Part shown: positions 1 to 61,530 of the stretch, one piece after another | Layout: each line of letters begins with the position of its first letter | Numbering within the stretch: position 1 is the stretch's first letter | Source: Nymphaea colorata | Lineage: Eukaryota; Streptophyta; Magnoliopsida; Nymphaeales; Nymphaeaceae | Direction of reading: 5' to 3' | DNA length: 64,000 nucleotides | Assembly: GCF_008831285.2 (NCBI RefSeq) | Contig: NC_045145.1 | Coordinates: 15,870,802 to 15,934,801, forward strand | Made by a program: the position numbers and the translations under genes | The notes under the pieces: generated by a model | Database searches by the model: none | What the model was told of the DNA's origin: nothing | The model's input: only the letters and a program-made list of their open reading frames with translations

Positions 1-2620
1 ATCCGGGCCCACTTCTAGTTTCAAATCCAACAATTTTAGAATCAGACAAGTCCACTGATTCAAGCCCACTACAGGCAGCGAAAGCAACAATTTGCGGATC
101 ATATAAGACTGTTGATCCTGGCACACTACTAGTTTTACATCCTACAATTTTAGGATTAGACAAGACCACTGATCGAAGACCACTACAGGCGGCAAGTGCA
201 ACAATTTCCAGATCATATAAGACCGTTGATCCGGGCACAGTACTGGTTTCAAATCCAACAATTTTAGCATCACACAAGACCAGTAATCGAAGCCCATTAC
301 ATGCGGCAAATGCAATAATTTCTGGATCATATAAGACCGTTGATCCGGTCCCAATCCTAGTTTCAAATCCAACAATTTTAGAATCAGACAAGACCACTGA
401 TTTAAGCCCACTACAGGCGGCGAATGCAACAATTTTCGGATCATATAAGACTGTTGATCCGGGCACACTACTAGTTTTACATCCAACAATTTTAGGATCA
501 GACAAGACCACTGATCCAAGCCCACTACAGGCGGCAAGTGCAACAATTTCCAGATCATATAAGACCGTTGATCCGGGCACACTACTGGTTTCAAATCCAA
601 CAATTTTAGAATCACACAAGACCAGTAATCGAAGCCCATTACAGACCGCGAATGCAATAATTTCTGGATCATATAAGACCGTTGATCCGGGCCCACTTCA
701 AGTTTCAAATCCAACAATTTTAGAATCAGACAAGACCACTGATTTAAGCCCACTACAGGCGGCGAATGCAACAATTTTCGGATCATATAAGACTGTTGAT
801 CCGGGCACACTACTAGTTTTACATCCAACAATTTTAGGATCAGACAAGACCACTGATCCAAGCCCACTACAGGCGGCAAGTGCAACAATTTCCAGATCAT
901 ATAAGACCGTTGATCCGGACACACTACTGGTTTCAAATCCAACAATTTTAGAATCACACAGGACCAGTAATCGAAGCCCATTACGGGCCGCGAATGCAAT
1001 AATTTCTGGATCATATAAGACCGTTGATCTGGGCCCAATTCTAGTTTCAAATCCAACAATTTTAGAATCAGACAAGACCACTGATTTAAGCCCACTACAG
1101 GCGGCGAATGCAACAATTTTCGGATCATATAAGACTGTTGATCCGGGCACACTACTAGTTTTACATCCAACAATTTTAGGATGAGACAAGACCACTGATC
1201 GAAGCCCACTATAGGCGGCAAGTGCAACAATTTTCAGATCATATAAGACCGTTGATCCGGGCACACTACTGGTTTCAAATCCAACAATTTTAGAATCACA
1301 CAGGACCAGTAATCGAAGCCCATTACAGGCCGCGAATGCAATAATTTCTGGATCATATAACACCGTTGATCCGGGCCCACTTCTAGTTTCAAATCCAACA
1401 ATTTTAGAATCAGACAAGACCACTGATTTAAGCCCACTACAGGCGGCGAATGCAACAATTTTCGGATCATATAAGACTGTTGATCCGGGCACACTTCTAG
1501 TTTTGCATCCAACAATTTTAGGATCAGACAAGACCACTGATCGAAGCCCACTACAGGCGGCAAGTGCAACAATTTCCAGATCATATAAGACCGTTGATCC
1601 GGGCACACTACTGGTTTCAAATTCAACAATTTTAGAATCACACAAGACCAGTAATCGAAGCCCATTACAGGCGGCGAATGCAATAATTTTCGGATCATAT
1701 AAGACCGTTGATCCGGGCCCACTTCTAGTTTCAAATCCAACAATTTTAGAATCAGACAAGTCCACTGATTCAAGCCCACTACAGGCAGCGAATGCAACAA
1801 TTTGCGGATCATATAAGACTGTTGATCCGGGCACACTGCTAGTTTTACATCCTACAATTTTAGGATTAGACAAGACCACTGATCGAAGACCACTACAGGC
1901 GGCAAGTGCAACAATTTCCAGATCATATAAGACGGTTGATCCGGGCACAGTACTGGTTTCAAATCCAACAATTTTAGCATCACACAAGACCAGTAATCGA
2001 AGCCCATTACATGCGGCAAATGCAATAATTTCTGGATCATATAAGACCTTTGATCTGGTCCCAATCCTAGTTTCAAATCCAACAATTTTAGAATCAGACA
2101 AGACCACTGATTTAAGCCCACTACAGGCGGCGAATGCAACAATTTTCGGATCATATAAGACTGTTGATCCGGGCACACTATTAGTTTTACATCCAACAAT
2201 TTTAGGATCAGACAAGACCACTGATCCAAGCCCACTACAGGCGGCAAGTGCAACAATTTCCAGATTATATAAGACCGTTGTTCCGGACACACTACTGGTT
2301 TCAAATCCAACAATTTTAGAATCACACAGGACCAGTAATCGAAGCCCATTACAGGCCGCGAATGCAATAATTTCTGGATCATATAAGACCGTTGATCCGG
2401 GCCCACTTCTTGTTTCAAATCGAACAATTTTAGAATCAGACGAGACCACTGATTCAAGCCCACTACAGGCGGCGAATGCAACAATTTTCGGATCATATAA
2501 GATTGTTGATCCGGGCACACTACTAGTTTTACATCCAACAATTTTAGGATCAGACAAGACCACTGATCGAAGCCCACTACTGGCGGCAAGTGCAACAATT
2601 TACAGATCATATAAGACCGT
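1..2620. repeat. Hierarchical tandem array (57/114/342 bp), left end outside window
   Basis: The whole stretch is a tandem array. The 11-mer GATCATATAAG recurs at 97, 211, 325, 439 and 553, exactly 114 bp apart. Three monomer classes alternate (for example GGGCACACTACTAG then TTTTACATCC, GGGCACACTACTGG, GGGCCCACTTCTAG), giving a 342-bp higher-order unit; GAAGCCCATTAC is at 289 and 631. Each 114-mer is itself two diverged 57-bp halves, both starting CAACAATTT and followed by GATCAnAnAAGACC and TGATCC. About 46 units of 57 bp are present. All three periods are multiples of three, so long frames stay open on both strands, including about 620 codons of a 19-residue repeat on the minus strand (698-2563). 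I do not call these genes. The array stops abruptly at about 2620, where copia integrase sequence begins. Confidence 0.97.
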
Positions 2621-3365
2621 TCAAGTTGTGGACTTTGTAAGAGTCATGTTTTACATTTCCATAATATAAATCAAAGGGCTTTCAAACCTTTTGAAACTAT
2701 TTTTTCTGATGTATGTGGATCAGCCCCTATTGATTCCATGTCTAGGTCAAGATATTATGTCTTATTCATTGACTCTTACTCATGTTCACCTGGATTTACT
2801 TCATGAAACGCAAATCAGAAGTACCCCACATATTACGAAACTTTTATGCCAGGATTCAAATCAAATTTTCATCCAATGTGGTGCATTTTCAATGTGATAG
2901 AGGGGAAGAATATTCCTCACTTGATTTTATTGAATTTCTACGTGAAAAATGGATAACTAGACAAATCTTCTGCCCTTACACACCACAACAAAATGGTGTA
3001 GTTGAGCGGAAACATCGACATATAGTTAAAAGTGCCATGAGCATGATGCATGGTACTAATGTGTCCATTTCCTTGTGGACTGAAGCCTTCCATACTGCTA
3101 TATACATAATAAATTGTTTACCTATGACACTCTTGATGTCTAAATCACCATATTTTACACTCTTAGGTAAACAACATGATTACAAAACTTGAAGGTTTTT
3201 TGTTGTGTATGCTATGTTTACGTTGATGCTGCCTTGAGGAACAAGTTTCAAGACAAAGCTATTCAATGTAGATTCGTTGGATATGTTGATGAATATAAAG
3301 GTTTTCGATGTTATGATCCAACAACTGAATGTATCAAAACTTCAAGAAATGTCATTTTTGATTAA
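2621..3365 (+). pseudogene. Copia integrase remnant
   Basis: Reading starts in the tail of the HHCC zinc finger (CGLCKSHVLHFH, about 2630-2665), followed by the core: FSDVCGSAPIDS, the first catalytic Asp in FIDSYS, the second in CDRGEEYSS (about 2898-2925) and the Glu in NGVVERKHRH (about 2992-3021). A frameshift near 2782 separates the start of the core from the rest, a one-base loss near 3190 shifts frame again, and a stop at 3363-3365 follows the motif RNVIF. The enzyme would join element cDNA to chromosomal DNA. This copy cannot make an intact protein. Confidence 0.93.
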
Positions 3366-3733
3366 CATAGTTTTGATGATACAAATGAAATGCTTATGAC
3401 CATTGAATCTTATGATCCCTGGACCAGTACACAGTTATTCAATGCAGATCCTATTATATAAAATAATGTGCCTCTAGGTGAAGATCCAGAGAGAGCAATA
3501 CAACCGTCGAATATGGCTCAAAGTGAAAATCAAGAAGATTCAACACAGTCATCAAGTCATCACGAAAGCAATAATGAAGAACAGAGCAACGATTCACATC
3601 GGTATTCGGGTCTTATCTATAGCCGACGACTAAGGGACAGAGATGCTCATAGTGAAGAAGATCATAACGCATTTGTCATCCCATTCACAGGTGAGTTAGC
3701 TATGATTTTTTATCACTTGATTTTCAGTAATTC
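3366..3733 (+). pseudogene. Copia integrase C-terminal tail and linker to RT, low conservation
   Basis: This part lies between the integrase core and reverse transcriptase. It encodes a hydrophilic stretch rich in Ser, Asn, Gln and Glu (3468-3700, for example ESNNEEQSNDS and YSGLIYSRRLRDRD), the usual poorly conserved linker of copia polyproteins. The frame is interrupted before and after it. No independent gene is supported. Confidence 0.75.
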
Positions 3734-4801
3734 ATGACAAAAGTAGGCAAGGAGGAAGAACCTACTTCATTTGATCAAGCATCAAAATCACATTATTGGA
3801 GAAAGGCTATGAAAGAAGAAATGGATGCCTTGCATGAATGTGGAACATGGGAGATCGTTTCAAGGCCACACGGAAAGAATGTAGTGGGTTCCAAATGGGT
3901 ATACAAAATCAAATACAAACCTGACGACAACATAGAAAGACACAAAGCAAGGTTAGTAGCAAAAGGGTTTACACAACAATATGGAGAAGATTATGATGAG
4001 ACATTCAGCCCTGTGATCAAAATGGGAACAATTCGCGTGATTATATCATTGGCAGTTGAATATGGATGGAGACTACACCAAATGGATGTGAAGAATGTTT
4101 TTCTTCATGGTGATTTGAGGGATGAAGTATATATGGAACAACCTCCATGATATATAAAAGGAGACTCTCATGCATGGGCTTGTAAACTAAGAAAATCTAT
4201 TTATGGACTTAAACAGGCCTCACGCTCGTGGTTTGGCAGTTTCTCTTGCAAGATTCAAGAATGTGGTTTTTGGAGATGTCCTCTAGATCACTCTCTTTTC
4301 ATTTATCGAAAGGAAAACATATTTACTTTATTTCTTATATATGTTGATGATATTATTATCACAGGAAATTCAGAAAAACACATAGAAGAAACTAAAGGTT
4401 TGATGATGTAAAACTTCAAAATGAAAGACCTTGGTGATTTACGATTCTTTCTTGGAGTGGGGATTGATAGGTACAATAATCGCCTCACATTGACACAACA
4501 AAAATATATGTTGGATCTGCTGAAAAAGTCAGGTATGTCTAATTGTAAACCTGTTGGAACTCCTAGTGTTCTAATTCAAAGACTAAGTGTTCAGGATGGA
4601 GAGTTATATGAAGATCCTACGCAATATCGAAGTATTGTTGGGGCACTTCAATATCTTACATTTACTAGACCAGATATTATATATGATGTGAATCAAGTAT
4701 CTCAATTTATGCATGCACCTAGAGATACTCACATGGATGCTGTCAAAAGAATATTAAAATATCTTAAAGGGACAACAAGAGATGGCTTAGTTTATGGTTA
4801 G
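3734..4801 (+). pseudogene. Copia reverse transcriptase remnant
   Basis: The plus frame reads [15 protein letters not shown], then [26 protein letters not shown], the first catalytic Asp context [25 protein letters not shown] and the active-site box LIYVDDIIITG (about 4336-4368), continuing through MKDLGDLRFFLG and GALQYLTFTRPDI. Stops interrupt it at about 4148-4150, 4409-4411 and 4799-4801, all in one frame, so point mutation rather than indels did most of the damage here. RT would copy element RNA into cDNA in a cytoplasmic particle; this copy is dead. Confidence 0.95.
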
Positions 4802-5432
4802 AGTGAAAATATAACTGTTGGGTATCAACTTATGACATTCACAGATGCAGATGCAGATTGCACGTAATCTTGTGTCTTGGAGTTGTCGAAAGGAAAAGGC
4901 AGTAGCAAGATCCAGCACTGAAGCTGAATACAGATGCATGGTTGCAGGTACTGCTGAAGTTACATGGGTTAGACATTTGCTAGAAGACATTGGAGAAAAG
5001 ATTAAAACGTCAATGTTAATGCAGATTTAGATGCAGATTGGACGTAATCTTCTGTCTTGGAGTTGTCGAAAGCAAAAGGCAGTAGCAAGATCCAGCACTG
5101 AAGCTGAATACGGATGCATGATTGCAGGTACTGCTGAAGTTACATGGGTTAGACATTTGCTAGAAGACATTGGAGAAAAGATTAAAACGTCAATGTTAAT
5201 GTGCGATAATCAAAGCGCTATTAACATTGCCTTTAATCCCATACAACATGGTCGAACGAAGCACATTAAGATTGATCAACACTGTTAGACAAAAGGTGAA
5301 AGACAAGGAGATTCAGCCTATTTATGTTCGTATAGATGAACAAGTTGTAGACTTATTTACAAAAGGATTAACGAAGCAACGATTCTGGTTTCTCAAAGGC
5401 AAGTTGTACATGGTGAAAAACCATGCACAACT
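4802..5432 (+). pseudogene. Copia RNase H remnant with internal 180-bp duplication
   Basis: RNase H motifs are seen as TDADAD (about 4841-4858), LVSWSCRK, ARSSTEAEY (the catalytic Glu context) and CDNQSAI (about 5203-5222), ending in VDLFTKGLTKQRF. The block 4851-5030 is repeated at 5031-5210 with an exact 180-bp offset and few differences. The first copy ends in a TAG stop at 5028-5030. The usual segment between DADWAG and the LVSWS motif (normally containing STSGYC) is missing. One more frame change lies near 5285. Confidence 0.92.
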
Positions 5433-5442
5433 TGAGGGAGGG

Positions 5443-5828
5443 TGTTAAACTATAATTCCTTCACCAGCACGTTGAAGGGGAGCCTCTTAGGATTCCACAT
5501 CCTTGTAAAATGTATTAAGATATTTAATGTTCTTGTAACATGTGAAAAGTCTCCTAGGATTCTATGTTGTAGTTATTATCCTTGTAATATGTGAAGTCTC
5601 CTAGGATTCTATGATGTAATTAATGCCCTTGTAGCTTGTGAAATCTCTTAGGATTCTACGATTGGAGACTCTTAGAATTCTGGAAATGAGATTATAAATA
5701 GAGGCCATGCCAACCACTTTGGTCATGACTTCTTCTCCTCATCTTCTTCTTGTTCACTCTTTCTCTCTCTATATTCCTGCGTGAATGCCGTTTTCAGAAC
5801 TCAGATATTGGTGCTTGAATTTCTTACA
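5443..5828 (+). repeat. 3' LTR of the copia element
   Basis: It begins TGTTAAAC directly after the polypurine tract and ends near TTCTTACA, giving about 386 bp with short inverted ends (TGTTA and TTACA). A TATA-like box TATAAATAGA (about 5693-5702) is followed by a pyrimidine-rich leader, as for the Pol II promoter of copia LTRs. Inside U3 a motif close to CTCCTAGGATTCTA recurs at about 5483, 5551, 5597, 5644 and 5669, partly with 46-bp spacing, and may be an enhancer-like reiteration. The right border is inferred from the CA end and not proven, because no 5' LTR is in the window. Confidence 0.8.
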
Positions 5829-5898
5829 GAGATGACTACAATGAGAGACTAAAGAACTGTTGGAGGATCTTAAAGCCTTTTTTGTAGCATTCTGTAAC

Positions 5899-6061
5899 AA
5901 AATCAATGGTTAACGAAGGAAATCATCATGTGGGAGGCAATGACAGTGCTCACGTTGGACTTCTTAGTGGGTGTTTTGTGCTTATACGACTTTTGCATTA
6001 GGCAACCCATGTAGGAGCTGCTCAACATCAAATCAAGTCATCTGTTATACGACTATAATCA
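5899..6061. repeat. Direct repeat copy A, about 163 bp
   Basis: It starts AAAATCAATGG and ends around TATACGACTATAATC. It matches 6362-6524 along its length, sharing GACTTCTTAG, TTTTGTGCTTA, GTAGGAGCTGCTCAACAT and AAATCAAGTC. The two copies flank a hAT zinc-finger remnant and have clearly diverged. They could be the ends of a non-autonomous element or a segmental duplication. Confidence 0.85.
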
Positions 6062-6088
6062 TCTAGAGCCAAAAACGTATTTTAGTAT

Positions 6089-6330
6089 CGTGGAGATCTA
6101 ATTGAAGATGGGAAAGTGGCTTGCAAGTGTTGCAATGTACCATACTCAGGAGGAGTTACTCAGCTGAAGTATCATTTGGCAGGAACTCAATGTCATGAGG
6201 TTGCTTCATGTAGACATGTGCCTTAAAATATTAAGTACATGGCAATTAAAGCTTGCATAGATTTTAATGAAATGCCTATGAAGAAAGGGAATACACAAGG
6301 TGATGCAATCCAATTATGTGGAAGTGGAGT
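6089..6330 (+). pseudogene. hAT transposase N-terminal BED zinc finger remnant
   Basis: One plus frame reads RGDLIEDGKVACKCCN, then SGGVTQLKYHLAG, CHEVASCRHVP, a TAA stop (6224-6226) and, still in frame, YMAIKACIDFNEMPMKKG. The CxxC followed by YSGGV..LKYHLAG is the BED-type DNA-binding finger found at the N terminus of plant hAT transposases and domesticated relatives. The rest of a transposase (catalytic core, dimerisation domain) is absent. It is bracketed by direct repeats A and B. Confidence 0.8.
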
Positions 6331-6361
6331 TTATCCAGTTCATTTAATATGTGTTGTGGGA

Positions 6362-6524
6362 CAAAATCAATCTTTAACTTAGGCAATGATCATGTGACAA
6401 GCAGTGACGATGTCCATGTTAGACTTCTTAGGTGGTATTTTGTGCTTACCTGACTCCTGCATTGGGAAACCCGTGTAGGAGCTGCTCAACATGAAATCAA
6501 GTCTCAGTTATACAACTACGACCA
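6362..6524. repeat. Direct repeat copy B, about 163 bp
   Basis: This is the partner of copy A at 5899-6061, offset about 463 bp and in the same orientation. Shared blocks include GTAGGAGCTGCTCAACAT and AAATCAAGTC. Substitutions are scattered, so the duplication is not recent. Confidence 0.85.
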
Positions 6525-6609
6525 TTTTTTTGTTATTGACATTGTCAAGAAAGCCCTTACTATCATTTTGGTTAATTTCTTGAAATAACCAAATGCAAAT
6601 CCAAGAGTT

Positions 6610-6810
6610 TCAGTATGAGATAAGACCACTGATCCAAGCTCACTACCGGTTTCCAATGCAACAATTTCCGGATCATTTATGACCGTTGATTTGGGCACAT
6701 TGCTAGTTTCAAATCCAACAATTTTTTGGATCAGATAAGACCACTAATCTAGACGCTCTACCTAATCCCGTTCCAACAATTTCTCGATCTGATAAGACCA
6801 CTAATATTTG
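6610..6810. repeat. Diverged short copy of the 57-bp repeat
   Basis: Four units resemble the array at 1-2620: each carries CAACAATTT (or CCAACAATTTC) followed by GATCAGATAAGACCACT or GATCATTTATGACC. It lies in the same orientation on the other side of the copia element, about 4 kb from the array's end. The units are more diverged and lack the 342-bp order, suggesting an older, unexpanded form. A 27-bp tandem pair (GGTGTATTTCTACCTACAAT, about 6810-6862) adjoins it. Confidence 0.88.
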
Positions 6811-19499: not shown

Positions 19500-20574
19500 T
19501 AACGTCCAGATTTCCGACAAGTCACGAGGTTAAAAGAGTAAAAAGGATGGGGAGGGAGAAACCAAGGACGCCATGGTTGTGCATCTGCCATTATTTCTGC
19601 TCGAGGCAAGAGGGAGACAGACAGAAGAAGGAGAAGGGAGAAACTGGAAGAAGAAAAGCGTCGAGCATTGACGCACGTCGTGTCGTCTCCTCGGCTAGCC
19701 GTTGCGATGGGATTGCCGCTCGCCCCCCGCCCTTCCCCACCTTGTTCGTCTTCGTCGTGCTTCTGATGGGCGTTGTCCATTTTCATCGATCTGTAAGCCC
19801 ATCGCTTTCATTTCTTCTGCTTCAACTTCTTGTTTTTGTTTGTCTTCTTATTTCGTGTCATTTTTCATTGGTTTTAGCGTCTTCTGCGTTTTTTGAGTCT
19901 GTATCGTTGAGGAGTCCTTCAGCTTCGGTCTCGGGGTTTATTGAACGCAGTCGTTTGGTGTTCTTTGCCTTTTCTATTATCGGTTTTGATTTGGTTGAAT
20001 TTTCAGTTTTCGGGCTGTCGATCTCGATGGTTTCTGGGAAGATTTGGGCTTAGTCTTGGCGTGGGCGTGGCACGTTGTGGGTTTTTCTTTGCGCTTTCTT
20101 GATATTTCTGATGGAGGTTGGGTTCGGTTTGTTTTTTTCCGTTTTCGGGAAGGTTGCCGGGAAGTCGCTTTCTAGGGAGTTTCGTGTGTTGTTTCTCTTT
20201 AATCGCATGTTTTTCTTTATTTGGATTTGTTTCGCAAAAATTGAAGTAGACAAGGTAAAAACTGTTTTGCGTGAAAGAAGGTGGGTGGTAATATAAATCC
20301 GATTGCATTTCGTTTTATTGGTACTGAAAAGTGTTCCAGAAAATGAGAATGACCCCTGATTCTATGTAGTTTTTTAAAGTTTCTTTACCTAGCATTACTT
20401 ATAGATCTCAAGAATGCTACATTTTGGTTTTTATTGTATCTTAGGAATGCTTAATGTAGAGGTCGACGACCTTGGATGTTACATCGAGAGAAAGTTATGC
20501 ACCCGTCGACTCTTTCGGCAATCTGAAGCTCGTAATTGTGAGCTCGGCCTTGGAGTACTTCGGCGCTGATAACA
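19500..20574 (+). promoter_or_regulatory. Probable 5' UTR with intron of the kinase gene
   Basis: The region just upstream of the kinase start is GC-richer and pyrimidine-rich, with no defensible coding frame. A donor-like CATCGATCT then GTAAGC (about 19783-19797) and an acceptor-like TTAATGTAG (about 20451-20459) could bound a leader intron of about 0.67 kb, leaving a leader exon from 20460 to the ATG at 20575. This is inference from splice-site appearance; the transcription start was not identified. Confidence 0.4.
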
Positions 20575-23500
20575 ATGGCAGACACTATCGACGTCATCTT
20601 GGATTACTTGAAGAGGCACCGGTTTACAAAAGCTGAGGCTGCTCTAAGAGGGGAACTCGTTGGTCGTCAGGAATCAAATGGTGATCTGACACATCCTTTT
20701 ACTGAAGGTTTGAATAACACAAATCGAGACGATGGTGCTTCAGATAGAGGTGCATATGCTTTTGAGCCTAGCCGGTCAGAAAAGCTTGCAAATCAGGCAT
20801 CTGGAACTGGAAGCCTACCAGGCAGTGATTCATCTGCAGAGCTTATAGTTAAGGAGGTCGAATGTGGGAATGTTAGAAATAGTTCTGGGAGGACGTGGGA
20901 AAACAGCTCTGCTGTTGCAGAGACGAGCTTGAGCTTGTCTGAGAGGCGTATGGTGAATGAGTCCGCTGGAACTAGTGAGAAGAGCTTCGATTTCCAGCAA
21001 GGATCAACAAACCTGCAAAGCTTCAGCATGCCAAGCCTGTCTGCAGATCTTTATCCGTGGACTCTTGGCATGAAAACTGATGCAAACTTGAAAAATTCTG
21101 CCACTATTATGGAAAAAATTTCCGATCTTCGATTATCTGGAGATTCTGGACACCCTGAGCATCATAGTGTTTATAGCTTGAGTAAAAGTAATTCTGTGAA
21201 AAGTGTGAAGACTGTTGGAGATAGCTCTGGGTGGTGTCAGAAGAACAGCAGCGTCATAAGTGAGTCTAGAACTCTTGGCTCGAAAAACGGTTCTAGGGAC
21301 ACTGATGTCTCAGAAGCAATGCCATCATGGTCTGGGTTTGGAGGTAATGCAGCTGAAGAAAAGCACCAGAGGGTCCAAGGGAGGGAGCATAATGATGACA
21401 ACAAAACTAGCAAGCCATTGGATACTATTCCCTTGGAAATATCTTCAGATGGGAGCAAACATGGTGGTCTGTATCTAAAAGATCAAATGCGAGAGTATGC
21501 ATGGACAAAAGATTGTGGAACATCATGCCCTCCTGCAGATGCATGGAAGGAATGCTCCATTAAGACAGTGTTTCCATTCCCCATGGCTGAAGCAACATCT
21601 GCATACAGAAATGTTACCGGTACAACCTCTGGGCGCTCTGATGGTGGTGGCAAAGAAGGGAAAAGGGGTGGTGAAGGAGCAGAATTATTATCTTCAAACA
21701 GTACCCATGCGACTCAAACTTCTTTCGTAGGTATATCTAAAGCCACTTTCGAACATACAAACACTGGAAACAGGGGTGTCACTATCAATAATGAAAATCA
21801 CAAGGAAGAACTGCCGAGATTGCCACCTGTCAAACTAAAGTCAGAAGAGAAGTCCGGAAACATTCATTGGGAGGACAAGGGTGGCCACTATGGACTAGCA
21901 CCAAAACCGTCGAACTTGGATAATGCATTTTTAATAGGATCCTTTCTGGATGTTCCTGTTGGACAAGACATTAATTCTTCAGGTGCTTTGCCCGAACTTA
22001 TAATATTTATCTTTTGTCTTTGGTGTATCCTGATCTCATATGTTAATTCAGAGAAAAAATAACATCATTTGGAACGACAAAGCGTGCAATATGCATGTAG
22101 ATGTTTATTTGATATCGCCAAAATAAGGGCATGGGAATCTATCTCTTTCATTATTCTTTTTTTCCTTTCTTCGTGCTTAGAGCAAAACACATAATTGGTG
22201 CACATTGGTTCATGATTTTGCCCTTCCATACCTTTATTGTAAACATATGACTCTCCTGTAACTGGTGCATGTTGATGGTTCAAGAATGTGACTGCAAGAG
22301 GGCACATGCATCAGCAACCAAGCATCATATCTGCAGGCCATCTAAAATTGTTCGACTTTTGGAAAACATGGTTCCTGCTTTGAGTTGCTTCCAATCTTTC
22401 ATGTCTTTATTGGTTAGGATTTTCTACTAAGTGATCGTCAAGCAATGTGAATGCTGTAAGCTTGCATATCCTTGATATATTCATTCCATAGTTCTACATA
22501 TGCTTATCTCTCTTTTATTCAAAACATCAGTTATTCTGCCCTAGCTATCCTTTTCTTGATCACTCTCTCAAATGCTGTTTTTGAATGAAACAGGTGGAAG
22601 GAAGACAGCTGGAAGTAGTTGGCTGTCAGTAAGTCAAGGAATTGCAGAGGATACATCAGATTTTGTTTCTGGGTTTGCTACAGCTGGTGATGGACTGAGT
22701 GAATCTATTGACTACCCAAACGAGTATTGGGATTCTGATGAATATGAAGATGATGATGACGTTGGGTACATGAGGCAGCCTATTGAAGACGAGTCTTGGT
22801 TTCTGGCACATGAAATTGACTATCCTAGTGATAATGAGAAGGGAACTGTGCGTGGCAGTGCTCCTGATCATCAGGAAAGGTCCCAACCAAAAGATGATGA
22901 TGATCAATCTTTTGCAGAAGAGGATTCTTATTTTTCAGGGGAGCAGTATATTCAGGCCAAGAACATTGAGCAGGTTGCCGTGCCTGAGGATCCAGTAGTA
23001 TCCATGACTGAAATGTACGGAAGAACTGATGAAAATGATCTCATTGCTCAATATGATGGGCAGTTGATGGATGAAGAAGAGCTAAATCTGATGCGAGCAG
23101 AGCCTGTTTGGCAGGGGTTTGTCACCCAAACAAGCGAACTTATTATGCTGGGTAATGACAGGGGCCTGAAAGAGCATGGTCACCATCGACATGAAGACCC
23201 ATGCATTGATGAGGACCAACATGGTTCGGTCAGGTCTATAGGTGTAGGGATTAACAGTGATGTGGCTGATTTCGGCAGTGAAGTACGGGAAAGTTTGATT
23301 GGAGAGAGCAGCGAAGGAGACTTGGAATATTTCCCTGACCAGGACACAAGTGTTTCTGAATCGAAAAAGGCACACCATCAAAAGGTGAAAATATCTTGTA
23401 AGAGAGTAGGAATAGATAAAGCAAGGGCATATAAGTCCATGTCAGGTAAAAGCATCATTGGGCCTGACAGTGATGGTTGTGCTCTTGGAATGGACTATGA

Positions 23501-26500
23501 TGGTGGATTTTCATTTCCATCTCCTTTGAGGGCTGAGGAAGTGATGAAGTCAGAGACTGATAAGGCTTTCTGGTCAGTGAAAGGTGATGGGCTTACTGCT
23601 GAGGACGACACCGATGATGGTGCTGGCCTGATTGAGGCAGAAGACATGCTGGCTTCATGGAGGAGAAAAAGTACTGAGTCCTCACCTGCTAAGAGCTCAA
23701 GGGATGAAGGCATCACTAACACAAGAAGATCACAGTCCTCATCATCTGCAGTTTCAAATTCATATTATGGTTATGGAGATAGAGAGCAGATCAACAATGC
23801 GCAGGATGAGAAAGTAAGTGATACCAGGGAAGAAGATGCAGTGACAACCCTGGAAGATGAAGAGGCGGCTGCTGTGCAAGAGCAAGTACGGCAGATAAAA
23901 GCTCAGGAGGAGGAATTTGAAACCTTCAATCTCAAGATTGTCCACAGAAAAAATAGGTTGCTCCAACATCTTAATCCTTTACAATTTCAATGATCTGCTG
24001 TTCTTCTGTTTGTGAACTTAATGGTTATGCCATTGCCAAGTATGTCCATCCGATGTAATGCCAGTTTCTTGCTGCATTCAATGTGTAGCTTGGAGGGCAT
24101 CTTGGAAAAGCAATTACCTCTGACATTCTCCAACTAACCACTTTTTTCTTTTTTACACTTCAAGTCTATGCTCACTGTCTTCTTGTCTTATTGGTTAGGA
24201 CGGGTTTTGAGGAAGACAAGAATTTCCATGTTGTCCTGAACTCCGTGATTGCTGGGCGTTATCATGTTACTGAGTATTTAGGCTCTGCTGCATTTAGCAA
24301 AGCTATTCAAGCACATGATTTGCACACTGGCATGGATGTATGTGTCAAGATAATCAAGAACAATAAAGATTTTTTTGACCAGAGTCTTGATGAAATAAAG
24401 CTCCTTAAATTTGTCAACAAGCATGATCCTGGTGACAAATATCATATTCTTCGGCTCTATGATTACTTTTACTACCGAGTGAGTATAATCTGTTCTTTCT
24501 GACTGCTTATTCGTTATGAAATTCTCGCAGAGATTCATAGGATGGTGCCCTTGGCAAGTTAAATGTCAATTGGTTTCCATTTGTTTTGAAGCATTGTCAA
24601 TTCGCTTATCTGATAGTTCATTGATAGTTGATGCATTTACTTGTGGAACCTTATATAATCATGACTTCAAGAAGCAAGAAGGAGAGGTTCTAGAACAAAT
24701 AGTCGTTTCACTTTCACTCCAAGCCCTGGACTTTTCAAGTGTGTGATGCTAGTACAAGATGTTATATTCTTCCGAGACATCTATTGGGCTCTTTATGAGT
24801 GTATTTATAACTAAAAACAAATTGCAGAAGTGTCACTTCATTGTGTCCCCTCTCACACGCAGATGTATCTATGCTATGAATAATTTGACATTATTGGATC
24901 AAATTGAAATAATATTGCAGAATATTCTAGGATAAGAAACATAGAGGAGGTAATGATCAGGATGATTAGGTCAACTGTTATAATTTTATAGCTCCTTTTT
25001 TTCTATTCTTGCATCAGCGGCATGTGGTGTTCATCATCAATTTTTTCATTTCGTGTATTTTGGCATTTATATTATGTCTCCTAAGCCCTACATTAAATAA
25101 TTTAAATTATGTGTTGGCCAACTCTTCATGTATGCATTAATAATAAAATTTATGTCCTTGTCTTTGATGCAAATCATTCTACCTTCTTCTAGTTTCTAAC
25201 TTTCTTCCCCGCTACACCAGCATATTCTTGCAAGAACCAGCCACAACGTTGTTCATTAATGTAAGCAAGCCCTTGACTTTTAATGAAACATGGAAGGGAA
25301 TTACCTTTGTGAAGTTTGGTGATATGTTTTCAGTTAAAGACTTAAATAGAAGTCCAACAGTTCATGGGCCTGATTTTTTTGACAATTCAACATTTTGATC
25401 CTTTTTAAAATCATTATAAATAAATATGCGCCAAAAAACATGTGTGTCTTTTTGCATGTGTCCCTTATACAAAACTTTAACGTCCTGGTACTTTATAACG
25501 TCTAGTCATTTGATGACTCATGACTGTTAAACATCGTGGGCTATGGATTAAGTGAGTTTTCCAGTCCTCTTTCAGCCAGGCTCTCAAACGCTTTCTCCTT
25601 CTTGGACAGGAACATTTGCTGATTGTGTGTGAGCTTCTGAAGGCAAACCTGTATGAATTTCACAAATTCAACAGAGAATCTGGAGGAGAGGTGTACTTTA
25701 CAATGCCAAGATTGCAGGTATTACTAAAAGCTGGTTGTGCATCCTCCAATTCCAAGAATATTTTTCTCTTAAAGTTCCTTTTCCATCTAATCATAGGGTT
25801 GCTCCTGCAGTCTATTACTATCCAGTGTCTGGAGGCTCTTCAATTCTTGCACAGTCTTGGTCTTATCCATTGTGATCTGAAGCCGGAGAACATTTTAGTT
25901 AAAAGTTACAGTAGATGTGAAGTTAAGGTTATTGACCTTGGGAGTAGCTGCTTCGAAACAGATCATCTTTGCTCCTATGTTCAGTCTCGATCTTATCGGG
26001 CACCAGAGGTTATCTTGGGCCTTTCTTATGATAAGAAAATTGATATTTGGTCTCTTGGTTGTATCTTAGCAGAACTTTGCACTGGAAATGTAAGTTGGTG
26101 ATGCTTTACCATTTTATTACTTGCCAGAACATGCATCTGAATTTGTAATGAATGGTTTCTGTCACTGCAGGTTCTCTTCCAAAATGATTCACCAGCAACT
26201 CTACTTGCCCGAGTCATTGGTATCATCGGGCCAATTGACCAAGACATGCTTGCACAGGGACGTGATACATACAAGTACTTTACAAAAAACCACATGCTGT
26301 ATGAGCGTAATCAGGTATTCCTTTTATGATCTTCAGTTCAGTTGAATTCAGTTGTCTTGCTCATGAAAAACTCGCAATGGGAGTAACCCAATGGTGGTTA
26401 AGGTTCAGGATTCCCTTGAATACTTGTGTGACCTTAGGATGAAAAGGCTTGCAAAACTGCGGTATCTAGAATTTTTTATACGAACAATATTTACAATCCT

Positions 26501-52209: not shown

Positions 52210-55200
52210 AGCCTATGACTAGGCTCCTTAGCCATAAGTTGCCAAAGACCACAACTGCCTAGATGATGGCTGATGATGGGTTAGAAATCAAAGGCTTTTT
52301 TTTAGTCTTTCTTTTTTAATGTTTTAAACTGTTGAAATTGATAGAGTTTTCTATTACGAGGTCTTTTCATTGTTTTCAAGTTAAGATTCCAATATTTTGG
52401 TTACTTTTTTCGACATTGTTTGGCCCAGACTAGCCTATAGGCATTTCAAAGGTCCTGTTGTTGAGATCGCTAGTGCTTGTGTTGTGACTACTATGACTAT
52501 GAGTGAAGCTATTTAATGATTTCCTTTAGTTGCCTTCCTGTATCCGGAACAGACATCAACGTTTGATGAGCTTGCCTGGTTACCTTCCTCTGTCTGTTCT
52601 ACTTGCTCAGGGGAGTATCTGTTTCTCTTGATATTCCTTTTATTTGTGGTGGCTAGTTTAATTTAACTTTTTGCCACTAACATTGGGCAGTTTTCCTGTT
52701 AAGTGCACTATTGGGCATTGAAGTTCCCTGCAAGGCTTCGTAATATGATTGAACATTCCTGTAAGCTTTAAAGTGAATAGCCACTGCATTTCTCCTTCCT
52801 AGTCGCAACATTGTAATATCTGGAAGTTTGCATTTGTGGGGACCCGATGCCATATTTTCCCTGTAATAGTTTCTGATTTATGTTTTACCTGAAATTAAAG
52901 AGGAACTTTTCAACTTAAAATTCTTTGTTCATTTAGGTTTTTAAGGATCTCGTCCCTCATATCCTTCTCATGACCCAATGCTAGAAATGTTTGTCTGGAG
53001 AAGCCCAAAGGATCACGCTTCCAAGGGGGAAGACTAGCATACACTGTTTCGAGTTGTTTACGGAAACGACGGTCCAATAATCCAATCGGACTAGCATACA
53101 CTGTTTCGTGTTGTTTACGGAAACGACGGTCCAATGATCCGATCGTCAAGATCAGATGAATGGGAGGAGAGGAAGGTAGGGCTCATTTACCGTTTTATGT
53201 GTTCAGGTAGCTTTAGTTTATTGGCATTGTTGAGCTTCGACTGGGTGTCGTGCCTTCGCGTTATAGCTTGTGCTGTTTCAGACTTTGGTGGGCTACGGTC
53301 ATCGAGAGGAGGAAATATGAAGTCCGTTCCCGTGTGTACACAGCACGTTGGATGTGTATTGTCGTTTAAAAGCAAAATACTTGAAGTTTGTGCGAACTAC
53401 CAAGATTTGATGCTTGATCTGGATAGCGTTCAGATTGGGGTACTTTTACATCGGAATTGGAGATTTTAGATTCAGATCATGTTGGGTAGCCGATAGGTCC
53501 ACCGTCTCACCCACCGGGAACGAACACAGATTTGGTGTCCCGCTTGTCCTTCACGAGGTGGAGCTTCTTTATTGGGCTCTCTACTTACAAAGTTTTCTTT
53601 TATCCCACCGAATCCTCAAACTTTTCCACTCCCCAAGAAATGTTTTCGCAGACGATCTTCGCCCCTCCTCCCTGTCTATTGGTCTAAAGTTTTTTCTCCC
53701 CATACCTCTCTCTGCCTTCCTGTCCACGAAACAGAAGACTCCTACTATTCACACCGTCATGATTCATGGGTAACTGCACGTGTAGAATTTACTTCCTTGG
53801 TCGACAGCCCACTCAACTCAACTTCTGAAAGAAATTGTTTTACATTTTTAGTTTGAGAAAAACATGGAGTATCGATTCATCATATGCATAACTATAAAAT
53901 TACAGTTTTTTGTTAGGGAGCAGGTAGGATTGTTTGATTTTGAGTAGCAGTTTTGTCGTGACCATAACCCTAGTTATGTCTTATCTTGGGGGCAACCTAG
54001 CAGCAGATTAGGAAGGGCTAGAACACAACGACATTTTCTCTTTTTTTAACAATGCATGGGCTTTCCATTCTCTGGCTAAGAAAGTGACAGTGCGCTTGGA
54101 TTTTCTCCTTTTCCTTTTCTGCGTGAAGGCAAGGGACGTCTAAAGTTGGAGGATCTTAGATGATCGTTTAGCCTTCATGTAGTCTTTCGATGGGCCTGGG
54201 CGGGGCGATTATGGCCCTCAGGGATGTGAAGAGCTTGGATCTGCATTGGATCTAGCCTTTAAAGGATTAGACTTCAAGCGGATTTGTGTAACTGGATTTG
54301 AATTTGAACTCAAACTATCAAAAAATGAACTTGAGTTTACAAGCATAAAGTCAGACATTTGTATGTAATCATATTGGATCTTTATCCAATCCCAGTTGGA
54401 TAGTGGACTCAAATTGAGAGTCAATTCTGAACTGCATGTCCAATCTAAATTTGCCAGATCTAACTAAATGAATACTGGCACCTTATGAAATTTTGGCAAA
54501 ATAACAATAAAACGAACCCTTGCATAAATTTCCTGGTTGTGCCTCTGGTTGCATACTCCCTCTGCGATTTTTCGCTGCTATGATTTCTGGGATGGGATCT
54601 AACTTAAGAAACTCAAATGCAGCTTGAGTGATCAATTAAACTGATAACACTCCTCCCCAACTTTGATCTCTTTCTCCTTTGAAGGAGCATAAACTTGAAT
54701 CAATCCGAGAGAATCAGCTTATAACTAGGGGGCAGCCTACAGCCTAACGGTTCATAGCCCTACCTCTCATAAGTCACACGTATTGAAACAGAGATATTTA
54801 CTTCATCGGTATCGCAGTCTGTTTTTCCACGTCTTTATCCCGCACCGATCTTGGACCTCTGGTCTGATGGATCCCAACTCGCTCCTCCAACACTTTTGGT
54901 TGCAGATACAAAAAGGTTAAGAACCAAGACAATCAGCCACTTAACAACTCCTTTATAAGTCCCTCAATATTTCTCATAATTTTAGATACAATATTAAACT
55001 TTTTCGAACTAGAGCATTATAATATGTTAGGAGGCAATTCATGTTTCTTTAGTCAAACTGGATGGCTAAACTTAGATCATGAGGATGCAAATGGTTTCAA
55101 CATAGGTGGAGGTTTTGTGGTTTTTTTCAGTACTCGGCTCAGTTCAGTGACTAAGGTTATGCAAATCAGTTCATTTTAGTCCCATTTATACACGGTTGCA

Positions 55201-56170: not shown

Positions 56171-56446
56171 ACTTGGCACTTGGCAGGGCGGCCGGCTGCC
56201 GATTCTTGAACTGGTTTTCGGGCCATCCTGACCCGAAATCCGATCTTGCTGTTGCGTACGGGCAACCGGTTCGTGGCATGAAGGTGATTAGGAGATTTCG
56301 AAAGGGTAATCTGGGGAAAACGAAGCGCTTGCGCTCTTATTTATGCGCCACCTTGGTGCTAGACCAAATCATTTTCTCTTTCTGTCTTTCACTTTCGTTA
56401 TTCGCTTCCTCTCGTTCCTAAGCTTTCTTCCCCTCAGAAGACGAGC

Positions 56447-59400
56447 ATGGCCGCCAAGAAAAACCATCCCGTCTTCCTTCTTCTGCGCCTGCTGCTGCTC
56501 TCAATCATATCGATGAAGGTGGCAATGGCGGAAGTGGTGACCCCGCCGCTGCTGCCGTACAAGAACCCAACCCTCCCCGTCGAAGCACGCGTCAACGACC
56601 TCCTCTCCCGGATGACTCTCGCTGAGAAGATCGGCCAGATGACGCAGATTGACCGCTCCGTCGCCTCACCCGCTGTTCTCCGCTCCCAGTTCATCGGTTC
56701 TCTCTCTCTCTCTCTCTCTCTTTGCCTCTCGCTGAGGGATGAAGATCGTGTCAGAAAAATGGATGATGATCTTTCTTGTGCTTTCTTTTTGTTCAGGGAG
56801 CGTTCTGAACGGAGGAGGGAGCAACCCGGCAGAGGATGCCACGCCGGAGATGTGGGCGGATATGATCGACGGCTTCCAGGAGTCTGCGATGGACACGCGA
56901 CTGGGGATCCCTGTCATCTACGGCACCGACGCCGTCCACGGCCATAACAACGTCGTCGGAGCTACCGTCTTCCCTCACAACGTTGGCCTCGGCGCGGCAA
57001 GGTGAGGCGCGGGAAAAAGAATCCGAAACGGACTATTTCCGTTATTGTCCCTGGCCATATAAAATATTATCGACGAAGCTGTTCATGTCGTCGAACTAAC
57101 TAAGGGCATCCTCGTAATTGTGATGCTTTTTCTTCTCTTCACAGGGATAAAGACCTCATGAGGAGGATAGGGATCGCAACGGCGCTTGAGCTCCGGGCAA
57201 CCGGAATCCCGTACACATTTGCTCCTTGTCTTGCGGTAAGAAACTAAGAAATTCTCTCTTCTTTCTTCTGATATCTGTCCCTTTAGATTTCAAGAAAGAA
57301 ACTAAATTAGTTCACAAGCTTTCGGTTCTTTGCTTGAAAATGTGCCCATGATTAACAACGCCTTGTAAAAACGAGTGGCCCCTTTTATTTGTTACCGCCT
57401 GTGACGTTTTTACTCCAGAAATCTGCTCCACTTCTCGCAATTCTGAAATTTTTCTGCAGCATGCTTGTTCTGTTCTTTTCATTTTGATCTTTATATCTTT
57501 TTCCTTGCCTCTTACTTTCTTAAGTCAGCTTAAGGCTTAGGAAATCCTGACCTCTGACTTCCACGTTTGGTTGTAGCACTTATTAACTGAAAGGAATTGG
57601 AAAGGTCATAGGAAATCCTGACCTCTGACTTCCACGTTTGGTTGTAGCACTTATTAACTCAAAGGGAAGTATGCCCCTTTTAGAAGATCCTTGCTTTGGT
57701 TTCCCTCAATATGCCAGACATTTTTAGTTGATCATTCCAATCCGGTCTCCGAAAGGGTTTTTTTGTTCTCTCTTGAGTCTTGAGAGCTTATAGTTGCGGC
57801 CCCCATCCATGAGAAGGCTGCTTCTTGTGAGAGGAGATTTGTTCCCTTACTAGACAAACGAGGCGCTTACGCATTGGACGATTGGAACCATAGCGCCTCC
57901 TCCTATGTTTACGAACCTACAAGTTATTCTTAAAATAAAAGCCATAAAAAGTGACTCGTCATTTCAATAGCGCCTAGATTGTTGCAAGTCTCAAGCCAGG
58001 AATGATCATGAGGCTGGACAGAGAGGAGGGGTCAACCTAAAGAGTTTTACATGCTAAAAGCCTGTCAATATACATAAATAAAAACAATTATCCTCCATTT
58101 CTTTCAATCTTCAGTTAAATGCTGGCAATCCAGAATATTGTTCCATACACATATTTGCATGGTTCACGCGCTAGCAGAGCTACTTGTGGGCTGTGCCCAC
58201 ACCAGTTCGGTGTAATTTGGACTGAGGTCCGGCCATATGTGGTGCCTGTGTCTATCTCGATAATAAACATGGAGTCTGTCTATTTCATGTGAAGACTCTC
58301 GAATTTCATCTAAAACGGTGTTGATTTCCGCTAAAACAGAAGCTTCACGGATAAATGATTGGCCCAAATGGCATTAAAATTAGAGTGTGTGTGGCGTCCG
58401 CCGGCAACGAGTTCAGCTAATGTTTGTTTTCTCGTGCTGGCTGAAATAATGTAGACACTGCCACTAGGTAAGAATATGGAAACTTTGGTTTTTTCTGCAA
58501 CATGTTTTTAAATGGACCCTACATTTGGCCCCAGGTTTTCTTGGCTCCCTGCAGAGAGCGAACCTGTTTATATGCGCGTGCACAAAATAATTCTCCATAG
58601 CTCCTTCCTCCCACAGGAGAGCCAATCCGAGGGGCCCTTGGGGACACTTAGCCCATCCTTTTCTGCTGACTAGAAGGACCCCTTAATTCCTTTGATACAT
58701 CCAGATGTGTGTAAATTTCTCAAAAGGCCCCTGGTTGACCGGATTGTTTTTTATTGTTGGTTTGTGCCTTGTAGGTGTGCAGGGACCCGAGATGGGGACG
58801 GTGCTACGAAAGCTACAGTGAAGATACGGAGGTAGTGAGGAGTATGGCGGAGATCATAATTGGTCTTCAAGGCTCTCCACCATCTGGCCACCCCAGAGGA
58901 TACCCTTTCATAGCTCAAGGAGGGTAATGTTGATCTATCCCTAGCCTTCTCGACGTTGTTGTCGGTGGTTCTCATGGCTTGGCTTGGACAAAGTTAACCA
59001 GGAGGGGCTTTTAGGACCATGCCTACGGCAACCGGGTCGAATAGGATGAGATCGTCTTTTTTTCTCCATTAGGCAAGTGGCATTAGAGGGCCCAATGAAA
59101 AAAAGTTAATATCCGATTAATAGATCACATCAGATTTGGATTTAAGAAATGACATTTGATCGGATTTAGATTTGATCGTTTGATCAAATTCGAATTTCGA
59201 TTCGAATCAGATTTATTTTTAAATAAGTTTCTATATTCAATGCTTTTACATTTTGAACGGCTAGATTCGGTTCAAAATTTGGGTCCCATTTCAAATGTAA
59301 ATGTAAAAATTGGATTCAGATTTGGATATAACTTTTCAATCTTCTTATTTGAATCCGAATTCGAATTTGAACATCTGAATAACCAAACCGAGAGTCTATC

Positions 59401-61491
59401 TGATTTGAATCTTACCCATTGGCATTCTTATAAGAAAATTCATGAAATTCAGCTGATTCCATAAATTCATTGTCATCTTGAAAACAAAGTGCAGCCCCTG
59501 GGTCCCTCCCCATATTGTTGAACCCGGTCAGGAAATTTTCTGATTTTTCCCGTGAATCATACGTAGAAAGTTTTAGGGCCTGACTTTTGCAGCTCAAGAT
59601 AATGAAAAATGTTGAGGTGGAAAAGAAATTCAATACTTTTCCAGCACTAAAGGAAACCAATATCAAAGTTTGCTGTCAAGCTTATGTTTGTATGGACAAT
59701 TGTTGACACAGAACCACACAAATTGCTTGTTTATATGTTAGTGTCTCATAGCCATTTGCGTACTTATTTTCTTATTTACATATTGGTGTCCCTTAATTTG
59801 AAAGGACGGCCTTTCACACAGATATTTATATCTTCACAAGTGCTACTAAAGGAAGTGTGGGTATGCAGCCTCACACGCTTTTCACCCTTTTTCTAACGCA
59901 ACCATGAAAATCACTTGAGATGGTAGGGTTCAATTTTCTCTTCTGTCCTGACAAAGGAGCCGGTCCTTGAACTCAATTCAAGGAGAACCGGTTTCCTTCC
60001 CACATGATGAAAGAAAAGGCCAAGGGACTTTGGATCTAAAAAAACAGGTCCCGCCCCATAAAGAAGAGAATAAAATGTGCATTCATAAGCGAGTGAGACG
60101 ATGGCAGTTGCATACCGATAAGACTAGTCCTTAGTCTCTCTGTTGCAACCTAGCTCCCTACCTACAACGCTCCATGGTTCTTTTATGCATAATTGGGAAG
60201 TTTTCATTTCTTTATGGGGACGAAAGATCTGCTATTCCACCATCTCTCTCCGCCGTCCAATTAGTTACGTTACTGTCGGCAGGATCTGCTGACGAATAGA
60301 AAGAGGTCAAAACTTTTTGCCGGTAGACAAGACCTTTCGAGCAGCGTTGTAGTGTGTTCGGGGCCCAATACCTACTGAACAGTTCCACCCTTTACAAGCC
60401 AACCCGTGAACATCACACGATCGTGTGTGTGACGTGCATTTTCATCTTTTCAGAAAAGACAATTTTCTAATTTGTCTTTACAGATATTCTTGTTTTTCCC
60501 ATGATAGTTCAATTATTTCAGCCTCCAAACCCAAGGCTCTGGGGCCTTTTGTGTCATTTTTTCTTTTCCTTGAGAGTCTATGGTCATTATTATTTAATAT
60601 TCTATTATAGTTGGTAAGCTTGATGAATTAGTAAATGTATGGTTGTCAGAATGTAACATTCTAATTACGTACTTTTTCATGCAATCCTGGCTTGCGGACA
60701 GGAGTTTCTAGTATTTAAAGGTCACCTTGTAATCATGAAGTTCCACTGTTTCGAGGTTTTCGCTTTTCAGGAACAAAAATGAAATGATACATATAGTATA
60801 TGTTTATAAATGCTAATGTTATTTAATCATATTTTTAATTATTTTTAGTTTTTGTTGAATGCAATTTTGATGTTAAAAGAATAATTTCTTTATTAAAAAT
60901 GAAAAGCACCTGTATCGCCTCTGGCGTTCGTTTGAATGCCAGCCACATGATGAACCTGGACTACTCAAAATGGAAATGAGTTCCTAAGAGTTAAAAACAG
61001 AACCTCGGCTTAGTTCAGAGATTAATCTTCAGATAAAATTTGATTCTTTCTTACCATAAGACAACAGTCTAGTTTGAGGGTGAAACTTTCCAAAAGAAAG
61101 ACAAACATGCAGTGCAGCCTGCAGGATGGACCTTAGCATGCAGGCTTTCTTCAAAATCATATACTGTCTAGATATTAAACACAGGCTATTCTTCACGAAA
61201 TGAAGCGCTCACGGTGGAAGGATTTTATTGTTTCTGTTGGGGAGCAGCAACAGCGTGGCGGCGTGTGCTAAGCATTTCACCGGCGACGGTGGGACGGTGA
61301 GGGGCATCAACGAGAACAATACGATAGCAAGCTACCCGGAGCTCTTTCACGTTCACATCAAGCCGTACCTCGATGCCGTCGCCATGGGTGTCTCCACGGT
61401 CATGGTCTCCTATTCGAGCTGGAACGGCGTCAAGATGCACGCCAATCCCTACCTCCTCACCAGGGTCCTCAAACAAGAAATAGGCTTCCAG

Positions 61492-61530
<39 letters not shown>

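Follow-up and report, generated by a model that had tools for sequence, protein, structure and literature searches.

A higher-order satellite array in Nymphaea colorata, probably grown at one locus from a minisatellite block of a dispersed unit

We suggest that the tandem repeat at the left end of the DNA analysed here is a non-coding satellite, and that it quite probably grew at one locus from a minisatellite block of a dispersed, probably transposon-derived unit. The analysed stretch, hereafter the window, comprises 64,000 nucleotides of Nymphaea colorata (C8:15870802-15934801), and the assembly searched had 407.8 Mb in 783 contigs. In the proposed course of events, a unit made of a leader, a BED fragment between direct repeats of about 160 bp and about 4-6 distinct 57-bp monomers would have spread to several chromosomes. 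Two adjacent monomers, m1 and m2, would then have been amplified at C8 as a 114-bp pair (A and B) into a dimer array. Three diverged dimers would have become a new unit, producing a core of 342-bp A1B1A2B2A3B3 trimers, with the left edge remaining a dimer array. Kilobase pieces would subsequently have been duplicated, at least once after the insertion of a young LTR element. A separate copia element would have entered an adjoining second copy of the unit, and after this insertion the right edge of the array and the 5' half of the copia would have been lost at 2621/2622. The amplifying agent may have been unequal exchange, slippage or circle reinsertion.

The initial annotation described a repeat with periods of 57, 114 and 342 bp, and these periods are real. 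Tandem Repeats Finder reported positions 1-2621 of the window as one array with 23.0 copies of 114 bp and 7.7 copies of 342 bp at 0% indels, and its parts are as follows.

1..2621, plus strand: right end of the 57/114/342-bp satellite array, 46 monomers, continuing left to C8:15826508
1..684, plus strand: trimers 1-2, near-identical to 1711-2394 at a lag of 1710
1711..2394, plus strand: trimers 6-7, partner of 1-684

Self-identity was 0.638 at a lag of 57 bp, 0.850 at 114 bp, 0.953 at 342 bp and 0.977 at 1710 bp, and the mean over lags 1-1799 was 0.262. Within the 114-bp consensus, the 57-bp halves agreed at 39 of 57 positions, compared with a mean of 15.0 (sd 3.2) and a maximum of 28 matches in 10,000 shuffles. 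When the 22 complete dimers were permuted 10,000 times, lag-3 identity never exceeded lag-1/2 identity by as much as in the real order. The homology between the halves of the 114-mer and the rotation of three classes over 342 bp, without either of which the annotation would have failed, are thus both present. The motif GATCATATAAG had been said to recur every 114 bp exactly. This holds for the period but not for every copy of the motif, which occurs 21 times from 97 to 2605 and is absent at two places, where the spacing becomes 228 bp. The 342-bp units are more alike than their monomers are among themselves, as in a higher-order repeat. A further level of duplication exists, because trimers 1-2 are 98.5% and 98.0% like trimers 6-7 (trimer 3 against trimer 8, 96.0%); the window array holds a later duplication of about 684 bp. 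Folding of window positions 1-114 as DNA gave no hairpin signal (z -0.60).

The satellite-like structure is larger than first noted. The window holds the right end of an array with 44 kb more to the left, which as assembled spans C8:15826508-15873423 (46.9 kb) and contains 717 monomers in three segments of 370, 66 and 281. It is a long head-to-tail array of homogenised repeats, as satellite DNA is. The A/B alternation is intact in 690 of 705 steps and the six-class order in 653 of them, and a second scan, with 718 monomers, gave a distance of exactly 57 bp between neighbours for 686 of 717 intervals. The k-mer search of the whole assembly that the annotation had proposed, for the 57-mer consensus, was run with an array-type 26-mer: 164 exact matches were found on the forward and 0 on the reverse strand, 162 of them in the C8 array and 2 on C1. 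The array is interrupted by an LTR element at C8:15852175-15857395, which has the target duplication GGATC and LTRs of 281 and 282 bp that differ by 3 mismatches and 1 gap, and again by a truncated duplicate of the 5' end of this element. The young element (from 15852175) and the truncated duplicate (C8:15847915) share the same array flank, and the pair could serve to clock rearrangement of the array.

Some other features of the window deserve mention. Exon-like open frames that by eye resemble a DYRK-type kinase gene (20542-26101) and a family 3 beta-glucosidase (56363-64000) lie about 18 kb and about 54 kb from the array, which is therefore near genes. Positions 53032-53145 hold two copies, 94% alike, of a different 57-bp unit; because BLAST of one array trimer gave no match there, the equal length looks like chance.

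Relatives of the array occur elsewhere in the genome. A search with one 342-bp unit gave at least 98 matches, which is a lower bound on the inventory with 38 of 177 candidates scored. The matches on C8 were at least 86% identical, and the others, on C1, C2, C6, C11, C12 and C657, were 69-82% identical. Away from C8, the repeat forms blocks mostly of 200-550 bp with spacers in between. A leader is common to C8-left, C6, C1, C2 and C11, and a BED-finger fragment between two direct repeats of about 160 bp is kept at C8-right and on C6. The C8-right copy lies in the window.

5829..6595, plus strand: end of the leader, BED-finger fragment and spacer of the second unit copy
5897..6055, plus strand: direct repeat a beside the BED fragment, 80% identical to 6361-6518
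6086..6226, plus strand: 46-aa open stretch, BED zinc finger at E 3.6e-4, narrowly past the Pfam cut-off
6361..6518, plus strand: direct repeat b; macro-tandem copies match a and b, with most of the BED part between them absent
6596..6805, plus strand: old-type 57-bp repeat block, about 3.7 monomers, with one 1-bp insertion

This second copy (5829-6805) is 84% identical to the C6 relative (L024 1725-2699), and its block at 6596-6805 is about 75-81% identical to the array in the best matches. We also considered 5829-6595 as an unrelated transposon relic, which was ruled out; it belongs to the repeat-bearing unit. C5 has BED sequence as well, and four places on C12 and C657 retain the stretch downstream of the BED fragment. 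In the other macro-units, the matches to the window stop at about 6063 and restart at about 6353, so that most of the BED part is missing there, which would fit a deletion between the direct repeats. On C5, the leader segment is present five times with a 191-bp period and 98% matches (L029 1960-2916). The clusters on C12 and contig C657 (L015, L018, L019, L020) have near-identical right ends, and the C12 macro-units are spaced at about 1545 bp; the locus itself thus seems to be duplicated, and the two clusters are not independent. Loci L014, L019 and L021 contain 100 N each.

The BED fragment in the window scores 20.9 bits against a Pfam cut-off of 20.6. It has at least 33 matches in the genome, itself counted (150 of 238 candidates scored). 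One of these, on C14, lies in a 477-aa frame with zf-BED and DUF659, and proteins of this kind we take to be hAT-type transposases. The hAT-type DNA transposons have terminal inverted repeats and an 8-bp target duplication. When the carrier unit was compared with them for a BED finger and a dimerisation domain, the sole part found was the 46-aa BED stretch, and in the flanks of several loci neither terminal inverted repeats nor target duplications of the dispersed unit were clear by eye. The unit is probably transposon-derived.

The monomers of the dispersed blocks point to a founding pair. The 88 blocks, from which joined matches no longer than about 200 bp had been excluded, were reduced to 83 by removal of 5 exact duplicates, and one yielded no monomers, leaving 82 with at least two monomers each. 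The first monomer was nearer half A in 75 of the 82 (one tie) and the second nearer half B also in 75 (one tie), counts that could be biased toward A/B-like starts by block ends set in a search with the C8 array. A spacer-end motif (at most 4 mismatches of 14) preceded the first monomer in 79 of the 82 blocks and was 0-1 bp off in 73, which indicates that the monomer called first is really the first after the spacer. The consensus of m1 matched A, and that of m2 matched B, at 52 of 57 positions, while m3 and m4 matched either at no more than 45. A tree was built from 275 distinct monomers, namely the regularly spaced m1-m4, the first 40 C8 monomers and 60 random ones beyond number 120. In it, the nearest dispersed monomer was an m1 for 35 of 36 A and an m2 for 47 of 47 B, and one split gathered all 47 B and 47 of 50 m2 but none of the 36 A. 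However, the same split took in 5 of 51 m1, and its support was just 0.75, which speaks against the founding pair. Together, the spacer motif and the tree support the founding-pair step. The commonest block patterns are ABABAA on C1 (6 blocks) and ABAA on C12 (10 blocks), and the C1 blocks would be intermediates toward the array.

The left edge of the C8 array differs from its core. Own-class identity is 0.892 in the leftmost 40 monomers versus 0.938-0.979 in the other bins, while the m1/m2 consensus, into which no C8 sequence went, matches these monomers at 0.861 and those of the other bins at 0.850-0.875. If the edge had merely decayed, both identities would be lower; since the ancestral match is not lowered at the edge, the edge looks like the dimer stage. 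The own-class match minus the ancestral match is -0.6 bases in the first and 0.6 in the second ten monomers, compared to 5.55 beyond monomer 120, where it is never below 4.3, and the first ten monomers on average match m1/m2 better than their best class. In the first bin, 17 of 30 steps follow the class order, a much lower share than over the whole array. At the right end, all 37 steps of the last bin are in order and there is no disordered edge. To judge from these gradients, the left edge looks like a dimer array without three-class order that preceded the trimer.

Later growth of the array has involved larger pieces. At a lag of 4380 bp, a 4.1-kb stretch consists of 342-bp windows with an identity of 98.5% or more, when gaps no longer than 342 bp are bridged. 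A 1,873-bp duplicate, 97% identical, includes array flank and the 5' end of the LTR element together, which dates the copying of this part of the array to a time after the element had inserted. The 81 intact core trimers diverge by 5.2% on average and include 18 identical pairs. A trimer's nearest relative most often lies 12 trimers away (21 of 81), and divergence is nearly flat with distance, for which reasons simple local unequal exchange alone fits poorly. Exchange of kilobase pieces would fit better than slippage of single units. A guess at low methylation, from a transition/transversion ratio of 21/24, was dropped; CpG transitions occur at 16 of 26 possible sites, versus 43 of 121 for other C/G sites.

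On its right side, the array meets a retrotransposon.

2622..5828, plus strand: copia-type retrotransposon without its 5' half, inside the leader of the second unit copy
5443..5828, plus strand: inferred 3' LTR of the copia, TGTTAA...CTTACA after a purine-rich tract (by eye)

The copia sequence starts by eye near the pre-integrase/integrase part, and its integrase, SH3 and RVT_2 pieces are broken by stops. In its apparent RNase H part, positions 4842-5201 of the window are a 180-bp direct duplication (96%). The change at 2621/2622 is abrupt, from mid-array to mid-pol, and we infer a deletion or a misjoin there. The uninterrupted relative on C6 is a unit without copia and shows the insertion site.

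The array had been described as next to a retroelement, and it does abut the copia. The link that this implied is unsupported, because the copia sits in the leader of the second unit copy. Satellites are documented to arise from internal tandem repeats of LTR elements (PMC7004042), and with the two sequences in direct contact the copia might be taken as the source of the array. However, the array joins it in mid-pol rather than in a 3' UTR, and the unit is present on C6 without any copia. When one array trimer was compared with the window by BLAST, no match in the copia was better than E 0.74. Among the 16 repeat loci that were fetched, the 100-bp bins of the copia were matched by at most about 4 loci and most of them by none, and the relic bins at 6601-6800 by all 16. 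A copia origin is accordingly hardly credible to us; the copia would be a later insertion into the second unit copy and an incidental neighbour of the array. The same junction, in an assembly of so many contigs, raises the question of whether repeated contigs were stitched into a false array. This we regard as highly improbable, in view of the divergence among the core trimers with their 18 identical pairs, the ordered gradient at the edge and the leader, which flanks the array as it does at other loci. The direction of descent might also be the reverse, with a long array existing first and a mobile unit capturing short fragments of it and spreading them, which would account for the same blocks lying within the unit on several chromosomes. 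Class-diagnostic sites, at which one class is odd, bear on both directions. At 14 of 20 such sites the dispersed dimers (68, irregularly spaced ones excluded) mostly have the shared state, so that the classes look derived, and at 6 they have the state of the odd class, so that two classes would have to share a change. The latter result favours an array that came first and cuts a little against the founding-pair step; the dispersed blocks, at 4-6 monomers, are mostly too short to show three-class order. However, at the 14 sites the dispersed dimers mostly lack the class-specific state, the blocks contain m3 and m4, which are unlike A or B, and the left edge on C8 is nearest to m1/m2. We consider capture from an older array unlikely and prefer growth from the dispersed unit.

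It is also conceivable that the 57-bp unit encodes a protein repeat of 19 codons, such as a leucine-rich-like one on the minus strand, and that the array is a repeat gene or pseudogene. The three periods are all multiples of three and the window part of the array has no indels. Of the six frames, three run open through the consensus trimer, an openness attained by 49 of 4000 simulated non-coding trimers, and when changes within the array are counted alone, one minus-strand frame leans synonymous (P 0.065-0.10). That minus-strand frame scored above the Pfam whole-protein cut-offs for LBR_tudor, DUF7839, LRR_8 (E 4.2e-8) and Flavi_DEAD, and a plus-strand frame for TAFII55_N. However, these scores are sums of many weak copies and the families are mutually unrelated. 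Each open frame has 2-3 stops within the window array. The 129 changes at all levels gave a clear synonymous excess in no open frame (P 0.16-0.28), in a test so noisy that a frame interrupted by 9 stops per trimer had a lower P value (0.018). In the dispersed blocks, 184 of 243 indels are of 1 bp and 17 are multiples of three, and 23 of the 83 blocks have an open frame. A search of solved structures (PDB) with two of the three open frames gave a best E of 1.7 and no match, respectively. A coding role thus seems very unlikely to us. With frame-breaking indels in its relatives and no clear codon signal, the array, like other satellites, is probably non-coding.

The suggestion that this is a satellite in formation is supported, because a single genome contains the likely founding pair, the edge made of dimers only and the higher-order core, and because the kilobase duplications are recent. 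To our knowledge, the start of higher-order satellites has mostly been modelled or deduced from mature arrays. Here, one genome seems to preserve the series from the likely founding pair through a dimer-stage edge and a three-class core to a kilobase duplication that includes part of a young LTR element, which makes it testable in what order the steps came and how large a unit was exchanged in each of them. More tentatively, the leader/BED unit could be a satellite-seeding element, every copy of which would expose several internal repeats, with different segments amplified independently at different loci, a reading that we consider somewhat less than probable. The segments would be the 57-bp pair on C8, a spacer-plus-block of about 0.7-1.5 kb on C1, C2, C11, C12 and C657, and the 191-bp leader segment on C5. 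If this is true, one family yields satellites unrelated in period and sequence.

Literature searches with short stretches of the repeat and for 114-bp/342-bp plant satellites found no paper, and the titles and abstract starts of the matches listed contained no description of the repeat; this does not establish the repeat as unpublished. Primate alpha satellite has monomer classes in fixed order, a homogenised multi-monomer unit and a less ordered edge. The C8 array shares the ordered classes, the multi-monomer unit and the less ordered edge, but it is confined to tens of kilobases at one locus and has a 57-bp monomer.

Satellites derived from tandem repeats inside dispersed elements are known, including Ogre-derived satellites of Lathyrus (PMC7004042) and cases based on MITEs and Helitrons (reviewed in PMC9659126). 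They resemble the present case in having short arrays in a dispersed unit, a long homogenised array at a restricted place and intermediates in one genome. Unlike the Ogre-derived satellites, the carrier here is a leader/BED-finger unit and not the 3' UTR of an LTR element, and unlike all of these cases the founding monomer pair can be named for C8 and a three-class higher-order unit has formed. In tomato, one subrepeat type of the rDNA spacer was amplified into a satellite by segmental duplication and its neighbours were lost (PMC2679016). The selective amplification of one subrepeat type is shared with C8, but the source in tomato is an rDNA spacer, and the abstract of that paper mentions no alternating dimer or three-class order. 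The kind of satellite is therefore already known, and what is interesting in the C8 array is the preserved order of the steps, together with the amplification of different segments at different loci.
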